64,000 nt of DNA from Pseudidiomarina marina (GTDB taxonomy: Bacteria; Pseudomonadota; Gammaproteobacteria; Enterobacterales; Alteromonadaceae), in NCBI RefSeq assembly GCF_003987045.1, contig NZ_PIPZ01000001.1:620001-684000 (forward strand), given 5' to 3'. The notes under the pieces were generated by a model, which saw only the letters and a program-made list of their open reading frames with translations, was not told the DNA's origin and searched no databases. Positions 26,664-35,240 of the stretch are shown one piece after another (position 1 is the first letter of the stretch; every line of letters starts with the position of its first letter). The position numbers and the translations under genes are program-made.

Positions 26664-27305
26664 TTAGCTTTCCGCATCCGGCTGCTGACTCGGATGCGCC
26701 TTGGCAACCCACGGTAGCTCAACGAGGCGCGCGTAGACTTCACGCAGCAACGGATACTCATCAAGAGGAATACCAAACCGCTCAGCGCTATACACTTGCG
26801 GAACTAAGCAGATATCGGCCATTGAAAAGTCATCACCGACGCAATACTTACCAGAAACCTCTTCTAAGTTGCGTTCAAATGCAGTGAAGCTTTGCCGGAA
26901 CCAGTGCTGCAACCAGGCTTGCTTCGCACTGTCATCAGCACCCAGTTCACGCACCAAATACTGTTGCACACGCAAATTAATTAACGGCTGTAATTCACTG
27001 GCGATATCTAACGAAAGCGCTCGAATGGCGCCGCGTCGTTGTGCATTTCCCGGCAATAATGAAGGCTCTGGATACTTCTCATCCAAATACTCCATAATTG
27101 CCAGTGATTGATGCAAAATCACGCTACCATCAACTAACGTCGGTACTAGCCCATTCGGATTCAGCTGACGATACGATTGCTTATGTTGCTCGCCACCCTC
27201 TTTAATGAGGTGAACCGGGATGTAGTTGTAGTCTAACTGTTTATAGTTGAGCGCAATTCGCGCCCGGTAACTGGCGCTTGAACGCCAGTAGCCGTAGAGC
27301 TCCAT
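26664..27305 (-). CDS. maiA: Maleylacetoacetate isomerase
   Basis: Zeta-class glutathione S-transferase that isomerises maleylacetoacetate to fumarylacetoacetate in tyrosine degradation. The protein has 213 aa. The GST thioredoxin domain carries the zeta signature YWRSSASYRARIAL (SSCxW-like variant), followed by NPNGLVPTLVDG and the alpha-helical C-terminal domain. The ATG at 27305 has GGAG six bases upstream; a TTG two codons earlier is less likely. It is last in the operon, 14 bp after fahA. Confidence 0.95.
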   Translation of the reverse strand: MELYGYWRSSASYRARIALNYKQLDYNYIPVHLIKEGGEQHKQSYRQLNPNGLVPTLVDGSVILHQSLAIMEYLDEKYPEPSLLPGNAQRRGAIRALSLDIASELQPLINLRVQQYLVRELGADDSAKQAWLQHWFRQSFTAFERNLEEVSGKYCVGDDFSMADICLVPQVYSAERFGIPLDEYPLLREVYARLVELPWVAKAHPSQQPDAES

Positions 27306-27319
27306 AATCAACTCCGCAA

Positions 27320-28345
27320 TTATTCGTCAGATGGCGAATACTGCACTACTTCTTGGTCAATGCTGCCAAAAATACTGTGGCCTTGCGCATCTGTCATTTC
27401 AATTTTGATGGTGTCACCAAATTGCATAAACCCAGTGCTCGGTTGCCCGTCACGGATGGTTTCAATCATCCGAACTTCAGCAATACAACTATAGCCGACA
27501 CCGCCTTCAGCAATAGCACTTCCGTGATCGGTGCCTTGCTTATTTGAAACAGTGCCTGAGCCAATAATCGCACCAGCACCCAAATGACGCGTCTTCGCAG
27601 CATGTGCTACGAGCTGTGCGAAATCAAAAGTCATGTCTTCGCCAGCGTTAGGTTTACCAAAAGGCTTCCCGTTATAGTAGCTCAACAATGGCAAATGCAC
27701 CTTGTTGTCACGCCATTTTTCACCTAACTCATCTGGCGTTACCGCAACTGGTGAGAATGCTGATGATGGTTTTGACTGAAAGAAACCAAAGCCTTTACCT
27801 AATTCATTTGGAATGAGGCCGCGCAATGACACATCGTTCACTAACATGAGTAAACGGATATATTGACCCGCTTCAGCGGCTTCAACCCCCATTGGTACAT
27901 CGTCAGTAATGACCGCAATTTCGCCTTCAAAATCGATACCCCATGACGTATCTGCCATTTCAATATCGTCTTTTGGCCCAAGGAAGTCATCTGACCCACC
28001 TTGATACATTAATGGATCGGTCCAAAAGCTCGGCGGCATTTCTGCGTTGCGTGCTTTACGCACCAATTCAACGTGATTCACATAAGCACTGCCGTCTGCC
28101 CATTGATAAGCGCGTGGCAATGGTGACTCACACAAGCTCTCATCAAACGCTTCAGCGTCGGCAATCTCACCATTGTTGAGTGCTTGATAGGCTTTTTCTA
28201 ACTGCGGCGCAACCGCATCCCAGTCATCTAATACTTCTTGTAACGTGGCAGCAATTGCTGGTACCGCAACTGCTTTCTTCAAATCGCGACTAACCAGCAT
28301 TAACTGGCCGTCGCGGGTTCCATTTCGATACGTTGCAAACTTCAT
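27320..28345 (-). CDS. fahA: Fumarylacetoacetase (FAH family)
   Basis: Hydrolyses fumarylacetoacetate to fumarate and acetoacetate, the last step of tyrosine degradation. The protein has 341 aa and the FAH fold with metal ligands in WGIDFEGEIAVITDDVP, and catalytic-region segments RHLGAGAIIGSGTVSNKQG and GGVGYSCIAE. It is shorter than the mammalian enzyme (about 420 aa) and belongs to the bacterial 2-keto-hydratase-like branch. Operon context with hmgA and maiA supports the assignment strongly. Confidence 0.93.
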   Translation of the reverse strand: MKFATYRNGTRDGQLMLVSRDLKKAVAVPAIAATLQEVLDDWDAVAPQLEKAYQALNNGEIADAEAFDESLCESPLPRAYQWADGSAYVNHVELVRKARNAEMPPSFWTDPLMYQGGSDDFLGPKDDIEMADTSWGIDFEGEIAVITDDVPMGVEAAEAGQYIRLLMLVNDVSLRGLIPNELGKGFGFFQSKPSSAFSPVAVTPDELGEKWRDNKVHLPLLSYYNGKPFGKPNAGEDMTFDFAQLVAHAAKTRHLGAGAIIGSGTVSNKQGTDHGSAIAEGGVGYSCIAEVRMIETIRDGQPSTGFMQFGDTIKIEMTDAQGHSIFGSIDQEVVQYSPSDE

Positions 28346-28351
28346 AAATCG

Positions 28352-29497
28352 TTATGCCTTATTGTCGTCTTTAGCTTTCCAGCTATTTACGTAATCAGGA
28401 TTTTCTACGCTGGCGCAAACATCGCCCATTTCTAGCGCATTGCGAGTATCCAGCATCACCGCAACTTCGTCGGTGAACTTTTTACGATACTCTAAACCTG
28501 CCTGAAATGCCTTCGGATGCGGCCCGTGCGTAAATCCGGCTGGATGGAAGGTTACCATACCTTTGTCGATGTTATCACGACTGAAGAAATCACCTTCATG
28601 GTAGAACAACACTTCATCGTAATCATCGTTATTGTGGTAGAACGGTACTTTTAACGCACCTGGATCAGACTCAATTGGGCGCGGTACAAATGTGCACACC
28701 ACAAAGCCATCAGCTACAAATGTGGTATGCGCTGACGGTGGTAAATGATAACGGTGGCTCATCAACGGACGAATATCACGCCAATTAATTCGAACTGGCG
28801 CTAAATCACCGTGCCAGCCAATGGCATCTAGCGGATTAAATGGATAGGTAATCACTGAGATTTTGCCATGACGCTTCACTTGAACCTGCCAGCTCTCTTC
28901 GCTGTATTGCGCTTTAAACGCCGCGTCGATATCTGGTGTATCAAGGCATGCCGGATCAAATATTGCATGATTACCAACCAGACCTTTCTCTGGTAACTGA
29001 TAAGCGCTATTGGTCGCCTCAATCATCACAATCTGCATCGGCTCTAGGGGCTCAATGCGCCAAGAGGTCGAACGCGGAATCGAGAAGTAATCACCTTTCT
29101 CGAGCGTGATGTGACCATAGTCGCAAAACAGCTCGCCACGCCCTTCGTGAATGAATAGCAGCTCGTCGCCATCGGCATTACGAACCAAAAAGTCCATGCG
29201 CTCATGACAATGCCAAATACGGAATTTACACTGCGCATTATGCAGCAACATTGGCACTTGCCACGGTGATTCGGTGGCGACGTTATCGAGTTTATTAAAG
29301 TCGAAGTTACGCGGACGCAACTCGCCTTCCCAATCACTCCAACCCGTTGGAGCATGGCGATGATGAAAGTGCGTTGCGGGACCAAAAAAACCACTACGCC
29401 CTACTTCGCGTTCAAAGATCGCTTGCTCCGGAAAATCAGCGTGCGCCTGCTTCGAGGCCACGCCAACTTGTTTCGGAAAGCTAATCCATTTACGCAT
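28352..29497 (-). CDS. hmgA: Homogentisate 1,2-dioxygenase, short form
   Basis: Opens the ring of homogentisate to maleylacetoacetate using Fe(II) and O2. At 381 aa it is shorter than the classical enzyme (about 430-445 aa). Cupin segments with likely iron ligands are visible: EVLFYHEGDFF and TFHPAGFTHGPHP near the C-terminus. The product is placed by the hpd-hmgA-fahA-maiA order as well as by sequence. Its start overlaps the hpd stop by eight bases, indicating coupled translation. Confidence 0.93.
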   Translation of the reverse strand: MRKWISFPKQVGVASKQAHADFPEQAIFEREVGRSGFFGPATHFHHRHAPTGWSDWEGELRPRNFDFNKLDNVATESPWQVPMLLHNAQCKFRIWHCHERMDFLVRNADGDELLFIHEGRGELFCDYGHITLEKGDYFSIPRSTSWRIEPLEPMQIVMIEATNSAYQLPEKGLVGNHAIFDPACLDTPDIDAAFKAQYSEESWQVQVKRHGKISVITYPFNPLDAIGWHGDLAPVRINWRDIRPLMSHRYHLPPSAHTTFVADGFVVCTFVPRPIESDPGALKVPFYHNNDDYDEVLFYHEGDFFSRDNIDKGMVTFHPAGFTHGPHPKAFQAGLEYRKKFTDEVAVMLDTRNALEMGDVCASVENPDYVNSWKAKDDNKA

Positions 29498-30554
29498 CGC
29501 TTAATACTCCACGACGAATTTGATCTTCTTCGATGGATTCAAACAACGCTTTGAAGTTACCTTCACCGAAACCTTCGTTGCCTTTGCGCTGAATAATTTC
29601 AAAGAATACTGGGCCAATCACGGTTTTGGTAAAAATTTGGAGCAAAATACCGTCTTTCATCGGCGCACCATCTATCAAAATCTGCAATTCACGTAATTCA
29701 TCGACATTTTCTTCGTGGCCTTCAACACGCTCATCGATTTTCGCGTAGTAAGTGTCCGGTGTTGGCATGAAGTCCATCCCAATCGCTCGCAAATCTCGCA
29801 CGGTCTTGTAAATATTATCGGATGTTAAAGCAATGTGCTGAATGCCTTCACCGTTGTATTCACGCAAATATTCTTCAATTTGCGATTTATCATCGTGTGA
29901 CTCATTAATTGGAATACGAATCTTACCGCATGGTGCAGTCATCGCACGGCTCAACAAGCCGGTCAGTTTACCTTCAATATCGAAATAACGGATTTCGCGG
30001 AAGTTACCGATTCGCTCATAAAAACCAGCCCAAGTATCCATATTGCCGCGGAATACGTTATGAGTTAAGTGATCGACTTCATACAATCCGGCAGCGTGAT
30101 CTTTCATCTTCGCTTCCCAGTTGTCGTAGAAGTTGAAGTCATTGGTGTAGATATCTTTATCAACGAAATACAATACACTCTCGCCGATACCATACACTGC
30201 AGGAAACTCTTCTTCACCTGCGGCGGTGTGACGCTGGAACGGCTTCGCGCCATTGGCAACAGCATGGTCAAATGCATGTTGTGCATCTTTAACACGCCAC
30301 GCCATACCGCAAACGCTTGGGCCGTGAGCTTTCGCGAACTCTTCAGCTTGCCCGCCGGTTTCAGCGTTCACAATGAAATTAATGTCGTTCTGCTTGTACA
30401 ACCAAACGTCTTTCGTTTTATGCTTCGCCACTTCAGTAAAACCAAGCTTGGTGAATAAATCTTTTAATGCCGCAATGCCATTTGCATCTGGCGCAGAGTA
30501 TTCAACGAATTCAAAACCGTCAGTTTGTAATGGGTTGTAGTTAATATCAGTCAT
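29490..30554 (-). CDS. hpd: 4-hydroxyphenylpyruvate dioxygenase
   Basis: Fe(II) enzyme that turns 4-hydroxyphenylpyruvate into homogentisate, 354 aa. Two vicinal-oxygen-chelate halves are seen; the iron ligands fit His in VDHLTHNV, His in GIQHIALTS, and Glu in FFEIIQRKGNEGFGEGNF, which also holds the C-terminal gating helix. A GAGG ribosome site lies seven bases before the ATG. It is first in the operon, and three TyrR-box-like sites lie 147-246 bp upstream. Confidence 0.97.
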   Translation of the reverse strand: MTDINYNPLQTDGFEFVEYSAPDANGIAALKDLFTKLGFTEVAKHKTKDVWLYKQNDINFIVNAETGGQAEEFAKAHGPSVCGMAWRVKDAQHAFDHAVANGAKPFQRHTAAGEEEFPAVYGIGESVLYFVDKDIYTNDFNFYDNWEAKMKDHAAGLYEVDHLTHNVFRGNMDTWAGFYERIGNFREIRYFDIEGKLTGLLSRAMTAPCGKIRIPINESHDDKSQIEEYLREYNGEGIQHIALTSDNIYKTVRDLRAIGMDFMPTPDTYYAKIDERVEGHEENVDELRELQILIDGAPMKDGILLQIFTKTVIGPVFFEIIQRKGNEGFGEGNFKALFESIEEDQIRRGVLSDA

Positions 30555-30700
30555 AGTGTCCTCGTTATTCGAAAATAGTGCGTTCTCTTCTGGTTAAAAT
30601 GACGCACAAAAAAGAATGTATCGATACTACTATGCGCACAGACGTGGTGAATCGCCAGCCCAGCACTGTGATCAAGTGGCTGCGCAGAAAAACAGCAAGA

Positions 30701-30718
30701 TGTAAACATATTGATACA
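30701..30718. promoter_or_regulatory. TyrR box candidate 1 upstream of hpd
   Basis: TGTAAA, six bases, GATACA, compared with the E. coli TyrR box TGTAAA-N6-TTTACA (10 of 12 bases). It lies upstream of hpd, next to the tyrR gene. Confidence 0.65.
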
Positions 30719-30750
30719 GATCAAGAAAGGCTGGCATGTAGGGGTTAAGC

Positions 30751-30768
30751 TGTCATGATTTCATTACA
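30751..30768. promoter_or_regulatory. TyrR box candidate 2 upstream of hpd
   Basis: TGTCAT, six bases, ATTACA, matching 9 of 12 bases of the TyrR box including the key G and C spaced 14 apart. It starts 50 bp from candidate 1, about five helical turns. Confidence 0.5.
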
Positions 30769-30782
30769 GAAGCCAAAAGCAC

Positions 30783-30800
30783 TGTAAAGAAAAAGCTACA
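30783..30800. promoter_or_regulatory. TyrR box candidate 3 upstream of hpd
   Basis: TGTAAA, six bases, GCTACA, matching 10 of 12 bases. It starts 32 bp from candidate 2, about three helical turns, and its right half runs into the left boundary of the heptamer element. Confidence 0.6.
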
Positions 30801-31034
30801 ACAGCGATATTCGTTATTCGTTATTCGTTATTCGTTATTCGTTAAAGATAAGGTCAAGGCAAAGAACGCAAGTTCCTTGCAGCAAAAGAAATTCCGAAAA
30901 TGAGTGCATTTGGATTTACCGAACAGCGAAGCGGACGAACAGCAAAGCGCACGAACCACGAAACACGTTGTTGCTTTTGTCTTCTCGAATAACCAATAAC
31001 GAATAACCAATAACGAATAACGAGTAACGAGTAA
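30795..31034. repeat. Heptamer-array inverted-repeat element A
   Basis: Left arm 30807-30841: ATATTCG followed by four perfect TTATTCG units. Right arm 30986-31034: seven inverted units (CGAATAA, CCAATAA, CGAATAA, CCAATAA, CGAATAA, CGAGTAA twice). The arms flank about 144 bp, which includes a degenerate 16-bp direct repeat at 30921-30936 and 30937-30952. The right arm begins five bases beyond the tyrR stop. No protein-coding content is supported. The shared boundary with element B begins at about 30796 (CTACAACAGCG). Confidence 0.85.
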
Positions 31035-31039
31035 CGTTC

Positions 31040-32590
31040 CTAGCGTTTGCGGGTTTTGCCGATACCGTAGTCGCGCAGCTTATTCGCTACTGCCGTATGC
31101 GACAACCCCAACTTCTTCGCCAATTGCCTCGTACTCGGATAACTCGGATATAACCGTCGAAGAATCGTCGCCTCAAATTTCTTTACGGCTTCGTCCAAGC
31201 TACCCTCTTCGAGATCGACTGCCACATTCTCCTGCAGGCTGTCTGCACCGGGAAGATGTATATCACTGATATCGAGGGTATCGCCTTCTGACATCGAAAT
31301 AGAACGGAACAACACGTTTTCGAGTTGACGCACGTTACCCGGCCATTGATACCGTTGCAACGCCTCACGCGCGGCGCGGGTAACCATCACTAAACTTCGC
31401 CCTAAGCGCTGACAAGCTTGCACGGTAAAATGGTCGGTTAGCAGGCTGATGTCCGATTTGCGCTCACGCAACGATGGCACTTGAAGCGTTAATACATTGA
31501 GGCGATAAAATAGGTCTTCACGAAATGTGCCCGCTTCAACGCGTTCAATCAGATCGTCTTGCGCTGAACAGATAATCCGTACATCGACAGTCACCTCTTG
31601 CTCTTCACCGATTCGACGGAAGCGTCCATCTTGGATAAAACGCAATAACTTGGCTTGCAAGCCATTCGACATTTCACCAACAGCGTCAAGTAGCACGGTA
31701 CCGCCGTTTGCTTGTTCAAAAATCCCCTTTTTCGCTTCAGTGTACGGTCCTAAACTACCTTTGCCGTGACCAAATAATTCACTCTCGGCGACGTTATCGG
31801 GTAAAGCAGCACAGTTGATGGCTAAAAATGGCTTATCCGCACGATGACTCGCTTGATGACAGGCTCGGGCAAGTAACTCTTTGCCGACACCAGTTTCACC
31901 TTGAATTAACAACGGTACGTTCAATTCAGCCATACGCGCCGCTTCTTTAATTAAGCGCTTCATGCTTGTGTGTTCGCCCAGAATTTGCCTGAACACATCA
32001 TGATTACCACCACGTTGCCATTGCTCAACCAAGGGTTGTGGTTTACAGGTAATCACCGCGCCAGCAAAACTGTTCTTACCGGCATCATCGGCAACCCAAA
32101 TGGGTAGCAGATCGGCAAAGTACTTTGAGCCACCAGCACTTATCTGCTGAACGGTTGGTTCTGTCGGTTGTTTCTCAAGCCAACGCTGTACTGCAAAACC
32201 GCTCAACCACTGGCCGATGAGCGTCCCGACAAGCTCAGTACGATTGTCACTCAGCACTTGTTGCGCTGCATCGTTAGCAATATCGATCATGCCGCGGCTA
32301 TCAACCGATAGGATGGGATCTGGAAGCTTACTAAGTAGCAGTTTAAATTCGAAATGTTCGCGCTCAGAAGGCATAATCGCGATGGTTTTAACGTCCTTCA
32401 CGTTCGGAATGCGTCGAATTTCCGGCATCAGATGCTGAAAGTCTTTAAATTCCAATTCGGGAAAGTTAAGGAAGATTTTGCCCTTCGGATCGACTTCAAT
32501 ACCACGCAAATCTATTTCGTGGTCACGCAATATTTGTAGCACGTCCTGAGCAATACCCAGACGATCATCGCAGGTTATTTCCAAACGCAT
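31040..32590 (-). CDS. tyrR: TyrR-type aromatic amino-acid regulator
   Basis: Transcription factor for aromatic amino-acid transport and degradation genes, 516 aa from ATG 32590 (MRLEITCDDRLG), matching E. coli TyrR. Domains: ACT (1-72), PAS (about 80-190), AAA+ (about 205-430) and a Fis-type HTH at the C-terminus (PSTRQLAKKLGLSHTAVANK). Walker A is GETGVGKE (231-238). The GAFTGA loop that contacts sigma-54 is absent, as in TyrR proteins that work with sigma-70. Unusually, Walker B reads LLDAVGEM, with Ala303 where Glu is expected. It is flanked by its probable target operons. Confidence 0.95.
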   Translation of the reverse strand: MRLEITCDDRLGIAQDVLQILRDHEIDLRGIEVDPKGKIFLNFPELEFKDFQHLMPEIRRIPNVKDVKTIAIMPSEREHFEFKLLLSKLPDPILSVDSRGMIDIANDAAQQVLSDNRTELVGTLIGQWLSGFAVQRWLEKQPTEPTVQQISAGGSKYFADLLPIWVADDAGKNSFAGAVITCKPQPLVEQWQRGGNHDVFRQILGEHTSMKRLIKEAARMAELNVPLLIQGETGVGKELLARACHQASHRADKPFLAINCAALPDNVAESELFGHGKGSLGPYTEAKKGIFEQANGGTVLLDAVGEMSNGLQAKLLRFIQDGRFRRIGEEQEVTVDVRIICSAQDDLIERVEAGTFREDLFYRLNVLTLQVPSLRERKSDISLLTDHFTVQACQRLGRSLVMVTRAAREALQRYQWPGNVRQLENVLFRSISMSEGDTLDISDIHLPGADSLQENVAVDLEEGSLDEAVKKFEATILRRLYPSYPSTRQLAKKLGLSHTAVANKLRDYGIGKTRKR

Positions 32591-32633
32591 AAATAGCAGC
32601 TTTGTTAGTCTATCTGTAAAGCAAAGTATACAC

Positions 32634-35126: not shown

Positions 35127-35240
35127 TGGCAGAATATCTCCTCGTTGTTGCGCATCAGATTGCATTCAGGCCGATCTGAACGCAACAGCTAACTTTGATG
35201 TTGATCATGTTTTGCTGTAACGGAAATTTGCCACTTGCAT

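Follow-up and report, generated by a model that had tools for sequence, protein, structure and literature searches.

A putative FNR site overlaps a conserved TyrR box upstream of the hpd operon in Pseudidiomarina

Our analysis of the DNA between tyrR and hpd of Pseudidiomarina marina revealed that the TyrR box nearest to hpd, here called D3, overlaps a perfect match to the consensus recognised by the regulator FNR. The window analysed is the whole 64,000-nt stretch of DNA, and all positions given below are those of the window. The FNR consensus is TTGAT-N4-ATCAA, and the FNR box at 30711–30724 on the minus strand (TTGATCTGTATCAA) matches it at 10 of 10 specified bases. Positions 30711–30718 of this box are common to D3, and as these eight shared bases include the left-arm G that TyrR requires, simultaneous binding of TyrR and FNR seems unlikely. 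The original prediction had described the TyrR site at 30701 and missed the FNR box on its left arm, which came to light in our alignment. As a tentative reading, which could nearly as well hold as fail, we propose that TyrR and FNR compete for a composite 24-bp tyrosine-AND-oxygen gate (TTGATCTGTATCAA-N4-TTTACA). Selection on both functions would have preserved this gate in much of Pseudidiomarina, with several gains or losses within the genus, and the sole genus genome without an fnr match does not have it.

The putative gate precedes a set of closely spaced minus-strand genes, identified here with NCBIfam and Pfam profiles. The first of these, hpd (29490–30554, minus strand), encodes 4-hydroxyphenylpyruvate dioxygenase (TIGR01263, 428 bits, cut-off 277) and overlaps by 8 bp an hmgA-like homogentisate dioxygenase gene (28352–29497, minus strand; PF20510, 57.4 bits, over the cut-off), which is followed by a fahA-like fumarylacetoacetase gene (27320–28345, minus strand; PF01557 and PF18288 both over the cut-off) and by maiA, maleylacetoacetate isomerase (26664–27311, minus strand; TIGR01262, 273.8 bits, cut-off 171). 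The homogentisate dioxygenase is divergent, scoring 80.6 bits with TIGR01015 (cut-off 510.75) while passing the Pfam HgmA_N cut-off. Upstream of hpd lies tyrR (31040–32587, minus strand; NF008085, 621 bits, cut-off 576; TIGR04381 HTH over the cut-off), whose start was taken as the ATG at 32587, the frame from a TTG start running to 32662; tyrR in turn is preceded by mdeA-like, phhA and phhB genes. The order mdeA-phhA-phhB-tyrR-hpd-hmgA-fahA-maiA is found in 16 loci (L084–L099, titled Pseudidiomarina, Idiomarina or Aliidiomarina), save L098, in which the gene-order comparison found no maiA match.

Two further regulatory sites in the cluster deserve mention. A TyrR box (TGTATACTTTGCTTTACA, 11/12; 32615–32632, minus strand) lies 28–45 bp upstream of the tyrR ATG, and a box at -41 to -54 of tyrR is present in 16/16 of the same loci; tyrR is probably autoregulated via this box of its own. 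At 35195–35233, upstream of mdeA-phhA-phhB, there is a TyrR-like site with three mismatches (TGGCAAATTTCCGTTACA), with TGGAAA versions in several relatives, together with an FNR-like site with one mismatch in this window, L084 and L085. PhhA, like the two dioxygenases discussed below, uses oxygen.

We searched for TyrR boxes with the pattern TGTAAA-N6-TTTACA, counting mismatches over its 12 bases, and found three upstream of hpd, all on the minus strand: the distal D1 (30783–30800; hpd-strand sequence TGTAGCTTTTTCTTTACA; 10/12, two mismatches), the middle, weak D2 (30751–30768; hpd-strand sequence TGTAATGAAATCATGACA; 9/12, three mismatches) and the hpd-proximal D3 (30701–30718; hpd-strand sequence TGTATCAATATGTTTACA; 10/12, two mismatches). 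The positions and match scores of these sites, as well as their spacings of 50 and 32 bp in the site scan, agree with the original prediction, which had also rightly placed them between tyrR and hpd: they lie downstream of the former and upstream of the latter, both genes being on the minus strand with no divergent gene between them. In a study of TyrR-dependent promoters, a strong TyrR box is one with at least 10/12 matches to this pattern (PMC4374768), a grade that D1 and D3 reach, while D2 is a weak box. The G-N14-C pair, as read off the sequences, is kept in all three. The window holds no excess of single sites with up to three mismatches (28 observed vs 43.7 expected). So tight a cluster, however, is unusual: no triple spanning 82 bp and including two or more sites with two or fewer mismatches was seen in 150 shuffles of the window (0/150), and one of the same strictness in 0/3000 shuffles of the 485-bp tyrR-hpd intergenic region; a looser 82-bp triple, with all sites at three or fewer mismatches, appeared in 10/150 and 4/3000 shuffles, respectively. 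Genome-wide, boxes with at most one mismatch number seven vs four for the reversed pattern, which leaves little beyond tyrR's own site.

Between tyrR and D1, at 30805–30845 and 30988–31036, are heptamer arrays, (CGTTATT)n and inverted (AATAACG)n, on either side of a core of roughly 150 bp. With one mismatch allowed, a 21-base array pattern matches 186 times in the genome, counting overlapping registers, and occurs in 18/26 Pseudidiomarina genomes vs 1/33 others; the cores differ among the array copies that were inspected.

For comparison of the hpd upstream region we used a genus set of 26 Pseudidiomarina genomes, the source genome and 25 further ones. The original prediction held that the box spacings are close to whole helical turns, with TyrR binding cooperatively on one face of the DNA. 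At 10.5 bp per turn the claim on spacing holds for the 32 bp (3.05 turns), which are in phase, and fails for the 50 bp (4.76 turns), which are roughly a quarter turn off, and cooperative binding on one face is thereby supported only in part; the 82 bp between D1 and D3 make 7.81 turns. Counted over the genus loci without L025, the spacing of this outer pair is 81 bp (n=1), 82 bp (n=14), 83 bp (n=2), 84 bp (n=2), 85 bp (n=2) or 95 bp (n=4), corresponding to 7.7–8.1 or 9.05 turns, so that the step to 95 bp, of 11 to 13 bp, is about one turn. In L021, L023 and L024 the extra bases fall between D2 and D3, in L032 between D1 and D2. These spacings suggest that the outer pair prefers one face, with exact phasing of all three boxes left without support.

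A promoter can be placed tentatively downstream of D3. The element CT[AG]G[CT], a putative -35 at 30654–30658 (minus strand) with a poor match to TTGACA, is found 41–43 bp after D3 in 24/26 genus genomes, the intervening DNA being unconserved, in an alignment of genus loci that was fitted in the sense that its register was hand-shifted by 1 or 8 bp in eight loci to follow CT[AG]G[CT], with outer spacings entered by hand from the earlier alignment. In 16 of the 26 genomes a 17-bp spacer then leads to CATAGT or TAGAAC (each 4/6 to TATAAT), and in the window the presumed -10 would be CATAGT (4/6) at 30629–30634, minus strand. Two groups of species differ by 5 bp in where a CATAGTA motif follows CT[AG]G[CT]. 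The tentative -35/-10 assignment rests on the conserved spacing, and a sigma-70 promoter scan of 30540–31060 gave 0 hits vs 1.2 expected. Measured from the tentative start, the centre of D3 would be near -88 and that of the FNR box near -95.5. Sigma-54 control was judged unlikely, as the alignment shows TyrR to have GSLGPY where NifA has GAFTGA, and therefore the encoded TyrR should use ordinary RNA polymerase; among the few sequences inspected by eye, none showed a GG-N10-GC element at the CT[AG]G[CT] position.

Both HPD and homogentisate dioxygenase require O2, and FNR displacing TyrR at low oxygen is therefore the simplest reading of the overlap. We lean slightly towards a model in which TyrR at D1–D3 activates the hpd-hmgA-fahA-maiA operon and FNR, at low oxygen, excludes TyrR from D3. 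The region would then be the operator and promoter of this operon, with TyrR carrying a bound aromatic amino acid occupying D1, D2 and D3, perhaps in hexameric form, and activating a weak promoter whose tentative start lies about 88 bp further downstream. A fall in oxygen would lead [4Fe-4S]-FNR dimers to bind their box and shut TyrR out of the promoter-proximal D3, and the oxygen-requiring pathway would be expressed only in the presence of both tyrosine AND oxygen. The arrangement of sites thus suggests that tyrosine and oxygen jointly switch these oxygen-requiring genes.

The main rival to displacement is activation by FNR, which as a class I activator or co-activator could raise hpd when oxygen is low, together with TyrR or alongside it, perhaps for use of scarce oxygen. 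Class I activators sit at positions of about -92.5, close to the -95.5 estimated for the FNR box, and the constant distance from D3 to CT[AG]G[CT] would be in keeping with such a role. Moreover, anaerobic biofilms of P. aeruginosa are reported to express the pathway genes, at a higher level on one medium than on another (PMC3742457), which fits activation and means that low oxygen need not shut the pathway off elsewhere. At the same time, joint occupancy is unlikely where the D3 left arm, with its TyrR-essential G, is common to both sites, and inducing two dioxygenases anaerobically makes little metabolic sense. We therefore consider activation unlikely, although it is the strongest of the alternatives to exclusion of TyrR by FNR.

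A lone perfect FNR box proves little, since most such boxes lie inside ORFs. Across the 2.41-Mb genome we found 27 perfect boxes vs one for the reversed pattern, and crude ORF calling places 20 of them inside ORFs and seven outside. The latter are the box at hpd, one between a norB-like and a radical-SAM gene (the radical-SAM gene presumably being nrdG-like), one before ompW, one 292 bp ahead of a catalase-like gene, one near a GNAT gene, and those before two short frames; the genes at the norB-like/radical-SAM and ompW sites are of the kinds that FNR targets. The case for the putative FNR box at hpd is its conservation. The box is perfect in 15/26 genus genomes, compared with a mean of 0.006 and a maximum of 1 of 26 genomes in shuffled regions (500 rounds). 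In an alignment of these 15 box-bearing genomes alone, all 14 FNR-box columns are identical, as is TTTAC of the D3 right arm, while in columns -25 to -7 relative to D3 the majority base is shared by merely 5–10 of the 15. Of the other 11 genomes, L011 has a version with two mismatches and ten have no FNR box at D3 even when two mismatches are allowed. All 11 carry other letters at the TTGAT position beside D3, showing that the TTGAT half-site is unneeded for the TyrR box. The left arm TGTATC may be the cost of accommodating an FNR half-site, yet it is also found without the box in L011 and L031–L033.

The distribution of the box was placed on a tree built from TyrR and HPD pieces (30 rows, six open forks). 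The perfect FNR box requires at least five changes on this tree and is strongly clustered (0/500 shuffles as low, near-copies contributing), its bearers spanning two subclades and L016. P. homiensis (L087), for instance, has the box, and P. sediminum (L086) does not. Such a history would fit one gain followed by several losses, or several gains, equally well. Beyond the genus, perfect boxes were found in 0/4 loci (L035–L038), 1/20 (L050, genome G068) and 0/71 (L093–L163), sets that share some genomes. The single case, G068 (L050/L178), belongs to a second genus and has TTGATGTAAATCAA over a TyrR box; in its genus mate G146 (L177) no perfect box was seen by eye in 330 bp, and the G068 box may have arisen by chance.

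These data bear on the possibility that TyrR alone matters, the TTGAT-N4-ATCAA match arising incidentally from the TyrR box and common ancestry. Consistent with this, 11 of 26 genus genomes manage without the FNR box, and TGTATCAA is found without TTGAT in L011 and L032. We nevertheless hold such an incidental match to be less likely even than activation, given that TTGAT is no part of the TyrR box and is the same in 15/15 genomes, across two subclades and L016, while neighbouring columns are scrambled.

The genome encodes a protein suited to read the putative box. There is one Fnr (NF008365, 318 bits, cut-off 228), which in an alignment to a solved FNR retains all four cysteines (three of them N-terminal) as well as the VETISR segment. 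The family is present in 25/26 genus genomes. The exception is G009 (= L025; 99% complete), where no Fnr-family match was found and which is also without the FNR box; as ten further genus genomes have fnr without a perfect box, G009 is one consistent case only. Counting against the displacement model are the 11 of 26 genomes lacking a perfect box, ten of them with fnr, and also the lack of a promoter in the scan and the greater distance of D3 from the -35 than at ipdC and mtr (see below).

Some regulator besides FNR could in principle recognise the palindrome, HmgQ, which regulates homogentisate genes in other lineages, being an example. LysR, MarR and IclR regulators of homogentisate genes are known elsewhere (PMC5343134). 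Such a reader is improbable here: the encoded FNR is the sole protein in the genome over the PF13545 cut-off, so that there is one Crp/Fnr-type HTH by this measure; tyrR is the only regulator among eight genes between 26664 and 35165 that were searched against NCBIfam; and the box is an exact copy of the FNR consensus.

Conservation of the TyrR boxes themselves is broader. Within 400 bp upstream of hpd, a box with at most two mismatches is present in 26/26 genus genomes (shuffled mean 0.6, maximum 4), and at least two boxes with at most three mismatches in 25/26 (an unshuffled count). Two boxes 82–85 bp apart occur in 20/26 (shuffled mean 0.015, maximum 1), and a triple with 32/33- and 50/51-bp spacing in 9/26 (0 in shuffles), although the shuffle tests count related genomes as independent and these figures thus overstate independence. 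The six genomes outside 82–85 bp are L015 (81 bp), L021, L023, L024 and L032 (95 bp), and L025, which has no clear D1. The three L030 boxes deviate from the pattern at just one base each. D2 is the weakest box and is degenerate in many relatives, where often the outer arms alone are kept. Among the named loci L093–L163, a box with at most two mismatches was found in 49/71 hpd upstream regions (shuffled mean 4.5, maximum 10; L106, with just 132 bp of upstream DNA, counted as a miss), namely in 21/36 where tyrR is the upstream neighbour and 28/35 where it is not. Positions for L033, L037 and L038 were taken from the match start rather than from a checked start codon.

The comparison of hpd upstream regions across related genomes that the original prediction called for thus finds both boxes and spacing conserved (20/26; 49/71), and by comparative standards the three sites are TyrR boxes. 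That they are chance matches without function is very improbable, for although shuffles of the window yield at least as many sites with up to three mismatches as the window itself, the conserved spacing and sequence of the boxes, in the genus and beyond, lead us to reject a chance origin. Direct TyrR control of hpd, and with it of tyrosine breakdown as originally predicted, is well supported by the conserved sites, the adjacent tyrR and the published TyrR/PhhR regulons (PMC5343134).

The TyrR/PhhR regulons of gammaproteobacteria include hpd and hmg genes, with TyrR predicted to control hpd, hmg, phhAB and tyrR itself, much as here (PMC5343134, PMC3223726). An FNR site at hpd and a composite TyrR/FNR operator are features of the present region that are mentioned in neither of these sources, in so far as their text was available. 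Similarities are also found with the ipdC and mtr promoters, where strong and weak TyrR boxes lie upstream of the -35 and E. coli TyrR activates via the RNA polymerase alpha subunit, the same mode that we propose for hpd (PMC4374768). Unlike ipdC and mtr, which have two boxes, hpd has three and an FNR overlap, and the centre of D3 is 55 bp from the tentative -35, compared with 33 bp at ipdC and 42 bp at mtr (PMC4374768). The control of hpd, hmg and phh genes by TyrR/PhhR is therefore already in print, while we did not find the FNR overlap in print: a search for a published TyrR and FNR site at hpd gave none among the matches listed, and was thin on subscription journals.

With respect to FNR, the region resembles FNR-controlled TTGAT-N4-ATCAA promoters in having a perfect consensus box and an FNR with four cysteines. 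It differs from them in that some bases of the box also belong to a TyrR operator and that the role of FNR is putative.

TyrR control of tyrosine breakdown has already been predicted in many gammaproteobacteria. A conserved FNR site within the TyrR operator would show how this oxygen-consuming catabolism is tied to substrate and oxygen at one short element, and since the FNR box is patchily distributed among species of a single genus, the evolution of such gates can be examined there in a natural setting.
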